From an uncultured Clostridia bacterium (GTDB taxonomy: Bacteria > Bacillota > Clostridia > TANB77 > CAG-508): DNA of 44,034 nt. Below, piece after piece: positions 3,432 to 44,034 of this stretch. The translations under genes were made by a program, and so were the position numbers. Under the pieces are notes generated by a model that saw nothing but the letters and a program-made list of their open reading frames with translations, did no database searches and had not been told where the DNA came from. The first letter of the stretch is position 1. Each line of letters opens with the position of its first letter. The DNA lies in the NCBI GenBank assembly GCA_947626735.1, contig CANQTK010000008.1:1-44034 (forward strand), given 5' to 3'.

Positions 3432-4442
3432 ATGCACCAAAAAAGTAATGTATTAGAACTTGCCAGTTATATTAATATGGAAAATGTGCCAGATTCTTGG
3501 CAAAAAGCAATGGAAAAAATAGAAAATCAAATTCCAAAGCAAATAGAATGGTTAAATATAAAAACAGCACAAGAAGTTTTAGATTTCTATGAAATAAAAG
3601 AAGAAAATTTTAGGAAACAATATTTAGAAACAATAGAAATGATTTACCAAGATGAAATACTAAAAACGATTGTATATTTGTGGCATTATATTTTATATAA
3701 AGATGAAACTTTATCTCATGATGTATGGAGTTGGAAAACAAACACCAATTTATATCAAAGTCACGGAAATTATATGCTTCCAGTAGTAGCAATGCTTAGT
3801 GGATATTCCATTCATAAAAAAGTAATTAAACAAAGAAATTTTAGTGAAAAACAAATTACTTATCAAAGAGAAAATATTAGAAAAACATGTTTAAATGATA
3901 GCAAAAAGTATCATATCTCTGGTATCAGATTTTCTCAAATGATATGGGGTTCCTATTTTATGAAAGGAAGAATAATTCAAGTAGGAAGATTACAATATGA
4001 ATTAAAAGCAACTAATTTTAAAAACTTAGAGCAATATGGTAAGAAGGATAGAGACTATGTTTATATTCATATACCAGAGGGAGAAAATTTATTAGAAGAT
4101 GAGGTAGCACAATCATTAAAAGATGCAAAAATATACATTGAAAAGTATTTTCCAGAAATCAATGTAAGTAAACTATCTTTTTACACACAAACATGGCTTT
4201 TAAGTGAGGAATTAGATGACATTTTGCCAAATAGCAGTAATATCATGAAATTTAAGAAAAGATTTCATGTAGTAGAACAAGTAGAAAATAAAGAAGATTT
4301 TTTAAACTTTGTATTTCAAGCAAATATGTGTGAACCAATAGATTACCAACAATTAAAAGAAAACACTTCTTTGCAAAAAAAACTAAAAGAACTATTAATC
4401 AAAGGGCAAGACTTACATATAGGTTTAGGAATTATAGAATAA
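3432..4442 (+). CDS. GNAT-like acyltransferase-domain protein
   Basis: 336 residues, soluble. The layout resembles Firmicutes proteins with an N-terminal helical domain and a GNAT-like C-terminal domain (the GNAT_C family). The supporting pieces are FSQMIWGSYFMKGRIIQVGRLQYE near residue 185, HIPEGENL and SLKDAKIYIEKYFPE near 215-250, and QTWLLSEEL, LPNSSNIMKF and RFHVVE near 260-290. By family it probably transfers an acyl group, but no substrate can be named. It starts at ATG after AAAGGAG, downstream of the duplicated Nudix fragment. A strong terminator follows. Confidence 0.65.
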   Translation: MHQKSNVLELASYINMENVPDSWQKAMEKIENQIPKQIEWLNIKTAQEVLDFYEIKEENFRKQYLETIEMIYQDEILKTIVYLWHYILYKDETLSHDVWSWKTNTNLYQSHGNYMLPVVAMLSGYSIHKKVIKQRNFSEKQITYQRENIRKTCLNDSKKYHISGIRFSQMIWGSYFMKGRIIQVGRLQYELKATNFKNLEQYGKKDRDYVYIHIPEGENLLEDEVAQSLKDAKIYIEKYFPEINVSKLSFYTQTWLLSEELDDILPNSSNIMKFKKRFHVVEQVENKEDFLNFVFQANMCEPIDYQQLKENTSLQKKLKELLIKGQDLHIGLGIIE

Positions 4443-42009: not shown

Positions 42010-42270
42010 ATGGATTATGAAATTATGATGAATGGAAATGTAAAAATAGGAATGTATGCTCCGGAATTTGAGGCAGAAACTACCATGGGAAAAATAACAT
42101 TAAATCAATATAAAGGAAAATGGGTGATATTATTTTCTCATCCGGGAGATTTTACCCCTGTGTGCACAACAGAAATAATTGCATTTTCAAAAGCCAATAC
42201 ATATTTTGAAAAATTAAATACCTGTTTAATTGGATTAAGCGTTGATTCCAACAGTTCCCATGAAGTGTAG
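42010..42270 (+). pseudogene. Truncated peroxiredoxin (AhpC/TSA family), N-terminal fragment
   Basis: 86 residues. [19 protein letters not shown] and [14 protein letters not shown] (peroxidatic Cys near residue 52, in the PxxxTxxC context) are clear 2-Cys or 1-Cys peroxiredoxin sequence, and LSVDSNSSH is the next conserved segment. Then the frame ends after four unrelated residues. No remaining part of the family (about 130 more residues) appears in any frame within the next 190 bases, so this is a deletion or rearrangement, not a simple frame change. Probably inactive as a peroxidase. Confidence 0.8.
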
Positions 42271-42351
42271 TAAAAGTTACCAACAGAAAAATAAGACAAG
42301 CAATCACATGATAATACTGGTAGATAAAAGTAGCAAGACTTTAATAATGAC

Positions 42352-42462: not shown

Positions 42463-42945
42463 ATGGTTGAACTGATTTATAAAGAACGGAAAAACGCAAA
42501 AGAATGGAACAGATTCTTTGTAAAAACAAAAGAAGATATACATTCTGTTGACTTTTGCAATCCTAAATGCAATAGGGATGTTGAATTTGTTCCTTTTACA
42601 AAAAAACTGTACCTATTGGATTTCCTGTTTTTTAATGTTCCTAAAGGGGTTAGTAAAGTAACGTTTCAAACTGTGCTTGATGCAATTCCTCAGGAAATTT
42701 TAAAAGATGTAGCTGCGGTGGAAATATGTTATATCTTTGATGTTGATGATTGTTGGCTTATAAACCTATTCAACAAAGAAAAGATTGATACTTCTATTTT
42801 TTGGATTTCTTTACTAACAGAGAAAGATACAGGAAAGGATTTACTACCTGTAAAACCAACTCCAAAAGATATACCTAAAACTGTACCTATAGGCATAAGT
42901 GATGAGGAATGGGATAGAATTTTAAGAGAGTTTTATCTCAAATAA
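42463..42945 (+). CDS. Hypothetical protein, probably acquired
   Basis: 160 residues, soluble, no membrane segment. A Cys-containing stretch, FCNPKCNRDVEF, lies near residues 28-40 and DVDDCWLINLF near 100; the C-terminus ISDEEWDRILREFYLK is helical. No family recognised. Codon use (CTG, CTT, GCG and a sense CGG at codon 9) differs somewhat from the housekeeping genes, suggesting transfer. It has its own promoter, ribosome site AAAGGAG and terminator, next to the AbiF module. Confidence 0.72.
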   Translation: MVELIYKERKNAKEWNRFFVKTKEDIHSVDFCNPKCNRDVEFVPFTKKLYLLDFLFFNVPKGVSKVTFQTVLDAIPQEILKDVAAVEICYIFDVDDCWLINLFNKEKIDTSIFWISLLTEKDTGKDLLPVKPTPKDIPKTVPIGISDEEWDRILREFYLK

Positions 42946-42972
42946 AGTTTAATGTATTAAGAAAATAGTTTT

Positions 42973-42998
42973 CTCCCTGTTGTAACAGGGAGTTTTTA
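42973..42998 (+). terminator. Intrinsic terminator
   Basis: CTCCCTG pairs with CAGGGAG and is followed by TTTTTAA. Confidence 0.88.
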
Positions 42999-43082
42999 AT
43001 TTAATATGAAATAATATCTAAAGATGTATAAATATTGTAAATAAAAATATAATACTATTAATAGATAAATTTAACATTTTAC

Positions 43083-43112
43083 TTGACAAACTCAAGATTA
43101 AGATGTTATACT
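43083..43112 (+). promoter_or_regulatory. Promoter of the AbiF-associated RNA
   Basis: TTGACA (43083-43088), 18 bases, TATACT (43107-43112). The start of transcription should be near 43119, just ahead of the two hairpins. Confidence 0.85.
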
Positions 43113-43118
43113 ATCTAT

Positions 43119-43205
43119 AGTAGATCAGTACTTCAGAAAACCTACGGGACTGAAGTCGGAAATGGATCGTACCTCGGGTAGCCTAAGGGTCCGAGGTCTT
43201 TTCTT
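43119..43205 (+). ncRNA. Structured RNA upstream of AbiF (abiF RNA-like)
   Basis: About 85 bases between a consensus promoter and the AbiF start, GC-richer than its surroundings. Hairpin 1: ACTTCAG (43130-43136) with CTGAAGT (43150-43156). Hairpin 2: ACCTCGG (43171-43177) with CCGAGGT (43191-43197), followed by CTTTTCTT as in a terminator. CTAC in loop 1 (43142-43145) can pair with GTAG in loop 2 (43178-43181), which would make a kissing-loop fold. A conserved RNA upstream of abiF genes is known (the abiF RNA motif); whether this matches its consensus is not tested. Ends are inferred. Confidence 0.7.
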
Positions 43206-43224
43206 ATCATATAGGAGGTAAATA

Positions 43225-44034
43225 TTGGAAAAAATATTTAAAACAATAGATGAACAAATAGAACTATTACAAAGTAGGAATTTACACATTGAAGACAAAG
43301 AAATTGCAAAAGAAATATTATTAAACAACAACTATTATTATTTAATCAATGGTTATAAAGATTTATTTATAGATAAAAACAGTAAAACAGAAACATTTCA
43401 TAACGAAACAACTATAGAAGAAATTTATAGTTTATATGAATTTGACAGAAAAATAAGAATTATATTTTTAGAATATATTTTGTTAATTGAAAGAAAAATT
43501 GATACTTATATAGCCTATGAATTTTCAAAAAATTATGGTCATAAAAATTATTTAATTCCAGAAAATTTTAATAATATCAATAAAAACAAAGACTTAATTA
43601 ATAAGTTCTTAAATGATATTAATCTTGAAATTTCCCATCAATACCAAAATTCAAATAAAATGGTTGTACATTATTTAGACAAATATAATTATATACCTTT
43701 ATGGGTATTAATAAGAATATTATCTTTTGGAAAAGTTTCAAAATTTTATAGCTTTATGAAGCAAAAGGAACAAAATAGTATAGCTAAAAAGTTCAATATT
43801 AGAAGTGAAACTTTAAAAACATATTTAATGAATTTAGGTAATGTACGAAATATATGTGCACATGATGAAAAACTATATGATATTATATTAACTAAAAGAA
43901 TAGGTATTACAGAGTATCATAGAAAATTGAAATTAATAAGTGACAAATTGAAAATAGTTTATGCTACAAGAGATTTATTTTCAATAGTTATTGCTTTGAA
44001 ATTATTATTGGAAGAGGAACAATTTAGAGCATTT
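43225..44034 (+). CDS. abiF: AbiF/Abi_2-family HEPN protein, 3' partial
   Basis: 270 residues visible and still open at the window end. TTG start at 43225, six bases after AGGAGG; no better start is present. Near residue 37 NYYYLINGYKDLF matches the YYRLSGY-type motif of the Abi_2 (AbiD/AbiF) family, YEFDRKIRIIFLEYILLIERKI near 75 matches the next conserved block, and GNVRNICAHDEKLYD near 211 carries the HEPN ribonuclease motif R-N-x-x-x-H. Family members stop phage growth by abortive infection, presumably by cleaving RNA. The structured RNA directly upstream is probably its partner or antidote. The neighbouring genes look acquired, in keeping with a mobile defence locus. Confidence 0.9.
   Translation, partial: MEKIFKTIDEQIELLQSRNLHIEDKEIAKEILLNNNYYYLINGYKDLFIDKNSKTETFHNETTIEEIYSLYEFDRKIRIIFLEYILLIERKIDTYIAYEFSKNYGHKNYLIPENFNNINKNKDLINKFLNDINLEISHQYQNSNKMVVHYLDKYNYIPLWVLIRILSFGKVSKFYSFMKQKEQNSIAKKFNIRSETLKTYLMNLGNVRNICAHDEKLYDIILTKRIGITEYHRKLKLISDKLKIVYATRDLFSIVIALKLLLEEEQFRAF

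Follow-up and report, generated by a model that had tools for sequence, protein, structure and literature searches.

A two-hairpin RNA upstream of abiF in gut Clostridia, a divergent subtype and probable antitoxin or attenuator

The analysed stretch of DNA (the window, a contig of 44,034 bases) carries at its terminus a sigma-A-type promoter, a predicted two-hairpin RNA and an abiF gene, which the contig end truncates after 270 codons. Judged from its sequence the RNA, which has a C(UACG)G tip and no match to the Rfam abiF RNA model RF03085, belongs to a divergent subtype. AbiF is likely to be a toxin with this RNA as its antitoxin or attenuator, as described for RCd22 of C. difficile. The kind of system, AbiF with a non-coding RNA, is already known; its RNA is here a well-conserved variant to which the Rfam model is blind.

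Organisation of the locus and the AbiF protein

The features of the locus are collected in Table 1. The full sigma-A promoter reported in the preliminary description is present, and the same -35 and -10 elements precede the RNA in 34 of the 35 close relatives with enough upstream DNA, at a spacing of 17-18 nt. These relatives belong to a set of 38 close loci, composed of the window and 37 loci from other gut Clostridia genomes, among which the promoter-RNA-abiF layout recurs. Rfam matches to PyrG_leader and ncr952 at 42900-43003 were discarded, being weak and falling on the upstream terminator.

Table 1. Features of the abiF locus in the window, and loci with stand-alone hairpins
Feature	Position or loci	Strand	Details
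Peroxiredoxin 5' fragment	42010..42261	+	codons 1-84, broken by the island; Pfam AhpC-TSA; tblastn map
AAAGTTACCAAC, island left end	42273..42284	+	relatives carry an inverted copy, TTGGTAACTTT, at the right end
160-aa ORF	42463..42945	+	without family match; probable further island cargo
Sigma-A-type promoter, extended -10	43083..43112	+	-35 TTGACA 43083-43088, 18-nt spacer, -10 TATACT 43107-43112
Two-hairpin RNA, predicted, ~85 nt	43118..43205	+	ends placed from promoter and U-rich tail
Hairpin 1, tip CC-UACG-GG	43130..43156	+	model R1 47.6 bits at 43123-43161; tip constancy
Hairpin 2 (43171-43197) and U-rich tail	43171..43206	+	model R1 48.7 bits at 43165-43204
abiF Shine-Dalgarno AGGAGG	43213..43218	+	kept in relatives
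abiF (Abi_2, HEPN RNase), TTG start	43225..44034	+	truncated by contig end; Pfam PF07751, PADLOC AbiD, PDB 8vz6
RNICAH motif of abiF	43846-43863	+	residues 208-213
Stand-alone hairpin copies	L209, L213, L214, L216, L218-L221, L223; also 3' of abiF in L009 and kin

The protein is clearly an AbiF, and its description as an AbiF with RNxCAH is confirmed by the agreement of Pfam, sequence match and fold match. It matches Pfam Abi_2 with 155.8 bits, the curated cut-off being 25.6, and is truncated at 270 of about 309 residues (307-311 aa in intact relatives; the full-length L042 is 93% identical). Of its RNICAH motif, the R, N, A and H are invariant in 25 homologues. The PDB sequence match is to 8vz6 (E 2e-16), entitled 'PbAbiF dimer bound to ncRNA', and R208 and H213 of the window protein align with the catalytic R210 and H215 of this structure, which according to PMC12373285 are needed for activity. 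In a fold search with the AlphaFold model of the window protein (pLDDT 92.9), 8VZ6 was also the sole PDB match at E <= 0.001 (E 3.6e-11, TM 0.76/0.70, 22% identity).

Structure and covariation of the RNA

The consensus of the hairpins opens with GAUC-(A)GUA and a 7-bp stem; CC-UACG-GG follows, with 3-4 nt before it on the 5' side and one base after it, then the stem again, UC and a U-rich tail. Both hairpins of the window have the 7-bp stem and the short CC/GG inner helix, and the C(UACG)G tip is of the UNCG tetraloop class. Single-sequence folding of the window RNA is unremarkable (z -0.93), so that folding energy was abandoned as a proof of the RNA and covariation was used instead. In a structure-free alignment (MAFFT) of 18 hairpins 96.9% of the cells are paired, compared to 81.1% for shuffled and at most 58.6% for slid alignments, and changes on both sides are found at 7 of the 9 pairs. 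In 61 distinct hairpins, whose alignment was fitted to the model, 97.8% of the cells are paired and all nine pairs show changes on both sides (107 cells). The covariation of the element at 43119-43205 is strong; it bears out the two-hairpin RNA of roughly 85 bases which had been proposed and shows this RNA to be real and selected for structure.

Kissing loops between the two hairpins, which had been considered possible, find no support: the two tips are identical or alike (UACG/UAAG) rather than complementary, the longest run of loop-loop pairing is 2 nt, and many relatives carry a single hairpin only. Pairing of the 5' strand of hairpin 2 (UACCUC) with the Shine-Dalgarno region (GAGGUA) is perfect in the window by eye; this candidate was rejected, as it is not conserved in relatives such as L067 and L072.

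Membership in the Rfam abiF RNA family, for which the covariance-model search was run, was rejected, as the window RNA did not match RF03085 at the gathering score or at E 10 and the RNAs of the relatives did not match at gathering. Both types are RNAs located before abiF and share by eye the basal frame AGUA-[stem]-UC-AUUU, whereas the apical part is A-CGC-loop-GCG-GACCA in RF03085 and NNAA-CC-UACG-GG-N here. The subtype is set apart from Rfam only, and it may already be covered by the AbiF RNA models of Zilberzwige-Tal et al. (AbiF5_iter3.CM and diverse_rna_xinsi.CM), which are named in PMC12804078. Hairpins of different sequence are found before abiF in six phage and plasmid records as well (Enterococcus IME197, Streptococcus Javan235, a faecal phage, Listeria LMC, and plasmids of Leptotrichia and L. 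innocua), and none of these hairpins matches RF03085. An upstream hairpin RNA thus looks usual for AbiF, of which the Rfam model captures one subtype. Within the order, the covariance model R1, which represents the hairpin described here, matches 74 of 385 genomes. A class-wide sample of 381 yields just three matching genomes outside the order, and the subtype is therefore mainly a lineage of that order.

Roles of the two hairpins and termination

At least one hairpin is detected by covariance model in all 38 close loci. Where two are present, CCUACGGG is almost always found in hairpin 1, while the tip of hairpin 2 is variable; hairpin 1 is the more conserved one and is presumed to be the AbiF-binding motif. 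L056 and L057 have a plain terminator hairpin in place of hairpin 2, and L058-L064, L066 and L067 have a single hairpin only, which in these relatives must serve both roles. The two-hairpin state requires two changes on the protein tree, as would be expected if a hairpin had been duplicated or lost.

The terminator-like end of the preliminary description stands as far as the U-rich tail after hairpin 2 is concerned (TCTTTTCTT); the simple terminator scan of the window, on the other hand, was failed by hairpin 2. The tail is stronger in the one-hairpin relatives (TCATTTTTT). From the failed scan and these stronger tails we infer that termination in the window is probably leaky; hairpin 2 is motif-like and presumably a leaky terminator at the same time.

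AbiF and its RNA as a probable toxin-antitoxin pair

In the mechanism which we propose, one promoter would give rise to a short two-hairpin RNA; hairpin 2 would halt most transcripts, making the RNA abundant, and rare read-through would produce an abiF mRNA whose TTG start is weak. Mainly through hairpin 1, the RNA would bind the AbiF HEPN dimer and block its RNase site. Upon loss of the RNA, for example in a host whose transcription a phage has shut off, AbiF would be freed, cut RNA and halt the cell. Termination, binding and inhibition, and likewise toxicity and phage defence, are here presumed by analogy with RCd22-AbiF and PbAbiF. C. difficile RCd22 represses AbiF in cis and neutralises it in trans by direct binding (PMC12373285). 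The earlier proposal that the RNA restrains AbiF, with abundant RNA and scarce toxin, is well supported by the comparison of loci and agrees with this tested pair.

In the close loci the RNA is retained wherever abiF is intact (32/32, the window's gene being intact as far as its sequence goes). The RNA is still there in six close loci with a broken abiF (L055, L057, L074, L075, L076 and L080), hairpin 2 alone remaining in L076, and in further genomes it is found beside mere remnants of abiF. The distant loci L081 (an Acetatifactor MAG) and L122 (a viral contig) have no hairpin 5' of abiF and carry one 3' of the gene with its own TTGACA promoter; as a separate downstream gene the RNA can, by this arrangement, act in trans. 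In a clade of nine loci of the L009 type a hairpin is found on both sides of abiF.

These arrangements bear on a different reading of the locus, in which the RNA is a cis-acting leader only, that is a transcription attenuator (autoregulatory or signal-sensing) which sets the expression of the toxin gene without binding or neutralising the protein. The terminator-like hairpin 2 does lie between promoter and gene, it is replaced by a plain terminator in L056 and L057, and the same leader is present before non-homologous toxin genes (see below). However, abiF cannot be attenuated by RNA genes which lie 3' of it behind a promoter of their own (L081, L122) or on both sides of it (L009 type), stand-alone copies of the RNA exist, and the homologous RCd22 was active in trans when tested (PMC12373285), all of which makes a leader acting only in cis quite improbable.

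The preliminary description had also left room for an RNA which guides AbiF; such an RNA would direct it to target RNAs, in the manner of a crRNA with Cas13. AbiF has indeed been proposed as the ancestor of Cas13 (PMC12165695; PMC12737573), but no evidence for guiding was found in the RNA, which lacks any spacer-like or variable segment, hardly differs between species outside the covarying stems, and in its minimal form is one hairpin of ~40 nt. We consider a guide function most improbable.

Against an RNA antitoxin of AbiF stands the occurrence of the same RNA unit before mntA-hepT, which is unexpected for a dedicated AbiF antitoxin. The failure to match RF03085, a Bacilli clade of AbiF homologues with intact HEPN motif and no hairpin, and the failed terminator scan count against it as well.

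Two irregular types of loci were observed. In L047, L055 and L074 an insert with inverted-repeat-like ends (GACAAATCTT...AGATTTGTC) separates the RNA from the Shine-Dalgarno of abiF, the gene being intact in L047 and broken in L055 and L074. L058 shows at 3600-3830 a tandem duplication, with a second promoter-RNA, a plain terminator and a decayed abiF following the intact abiF.

The RNA unit beyond abiF

The same promoter and two hairpins precede mntA-hepT in seven loci (L185, L186, L187, L201, L210, L215 and L222, where the contig stops after mntA). By Pfam the genes following the unit are a nucleotidyltransferase and a HepT-like gene, and they are assigned to MntA and HepT by NCBIfam with scores below the curated cut-offs. 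In six of the seven genomes (G581, G522, G569, G597, G478, G055) no Abi_2 protein is present. In a search started from MntA the close homologues mostly carried the unit (L232, L234, L236), which was decayed in L235 and absent in L233; distant MntA homologues were without it. A PemK/MazF-like gene follows the one-hairpin form in two genomes (L208, L211). The base of the stem in these two loci carries a compensatory A-U to U-A change. MazF was rejected as a regular partner, since the 98%-identical proteins of L244 and L245 are not accompanied by the RNA.

Such loci could be taken for an exchangeable control module, in which several RNase toxins (AbiF, MntA-HepT and rarely MazF/PemK) make use of the promoter-RNA unit, which is swapped between them by recombination within mobile islands. 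The seven mntA-hepT loci and the six genomes without Abi_2 protein would agree with this, as would L051, where an RNA remnant and mntA are followed by promoter-RNA-abiF, and the fact that most stems remain paired despite sequence differences. We nevertheless regard such a module as unlikely, since before mntA the tip motif drifts and parts of the unit decay (L210, L222, L235), a 90%-identical MntA (L233) has no unit, the MazF link is sporadic, and functionless capture by recombination is possible. The corresponding function, by which the unit would restrain each RNase toxin in cis or in trans and permit swapping of toxins, with the stand-alone copies as orphan antitoxins, is put forward as a doubtful possibility. 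In our view the MntA link represents a recurrent cassette whose function is unproven, and the MazF link is a sporadic one.

About ten stand-alone copies of the hairpin (GAGTGGTACTTAGAAAACTTTCGAAGCTCTAAGTCATTCA; Table 1), with a separate terminator, were observed at unrelated genomic places and resemble orphan small RNAs.

AbiF homologues without the RNA

A common absence of the upstream element from AbiF homologues had been named as a point against the RNA. Every close homologue has the element, and one distant clade does not: in the Bacilli/Tenericutes AbiF clade (19 tree rows, support 100/99; L088-L120) no hairpin was found before the gene. The HEPN motif is intact in this clade, and loss of catalytic residues was therefore dismissed as the cause of the absence of the RNA. 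In those of its loci which were read on the downstream side, abiF runs straight into another ORF, by eye that of a trypsin-like protease. The gene pair is apparently a fixed operon; perhaps these AbiF proteins are housekeeping derivatives, or they rely on a different antidote. The RNA is also absent from a homologue outside this clade, L008.

A probable mobile island in a peroxiredoxin gene

In many loci the cassette is flanked or adjoined by fragments of a peroxiredoxin gene (prx). In L060, L061 and L051 the order is the 5' part of prx, the left end AAAGTTACCAAC, cargo, promoter-RNA-abiF, a recombinase and the 3' part of prx, which in L060 and L061 is preceded by the right end TTGGTAACTTT. 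The recombinase, of approximately 500-540 aa, reads by eye as a serine recombinase. Islands in the peroxiredoxin gene were found in L060, L061, L051, L053 and L049, and their cargo varies between species. The window contains prx codons 1-84 with the same left end behind them, so that its abiF was most likely carried in by such an island, the right end of which would lie beyond the contig.

Relation to known systems

Dozens of gut Clostridia genomes share this conserved RNA class, which is invisible to Rfam. As CRISPR-Cas13 has been proposed to descend from AbiF-RNA pairs, the range of AbiF RNAs bears on the origin of crRNA. The class has a minimal one-hairpin form of ~40 nt and sometimes lies apart from the toxin gene, and it thereby offers small and easily tested candidate antitoxin RNAs. 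Since the unit also precedes MntA-HepT in genomes that have no abiF, one may ask whether more than one HEPN toxin is served by a single class of RNA.

Classical type III toxin-antitoxin systems (ToxIN) are characterised by a tandem array of antitoxin repeats and a ToxN-type toxin; here at most two hairpins, often one, are present and the toxin is Abi_2/HEPN. The type VII system MntA-HepT has in common with the window a HEPN RNase toxin and, in some members, the promoter-RNA unit, but its antitoxin is a protein, an adenylyltransferase. To our knowledge the described MntA-HepT system includes no RNA, and a literature search for an RNA in MntA-HepT loci found no paper.

PbAbiF-AbiFr (8VZ6; Zilberzwige-Tal et al. 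2025) shares the HEPN fold, the catalytic R/H pair and a non-coding RNA encoded in the locus, as described in PMC12373285 and PMC12737573; the comparison is by protein only, and identity over the fold match is 22%. The RCd22-AbiF pair of the C. difficile phi027 prophage (PMC12373285) differs in having two RF03085 motifs and a separate terminator hairpin, whereas the window has no RF03085 match, a hairpin 2 which itself runs into the U-rich tail, and a TTG start. RCd22-AbiF, with its RNA of ~100 nt, low read-through and neutralisation in cis and in trans, resembles the window in its SigA promoter, its two hairpin motifs, its terminator and an abiF with RNxCAH (PMC12373285).
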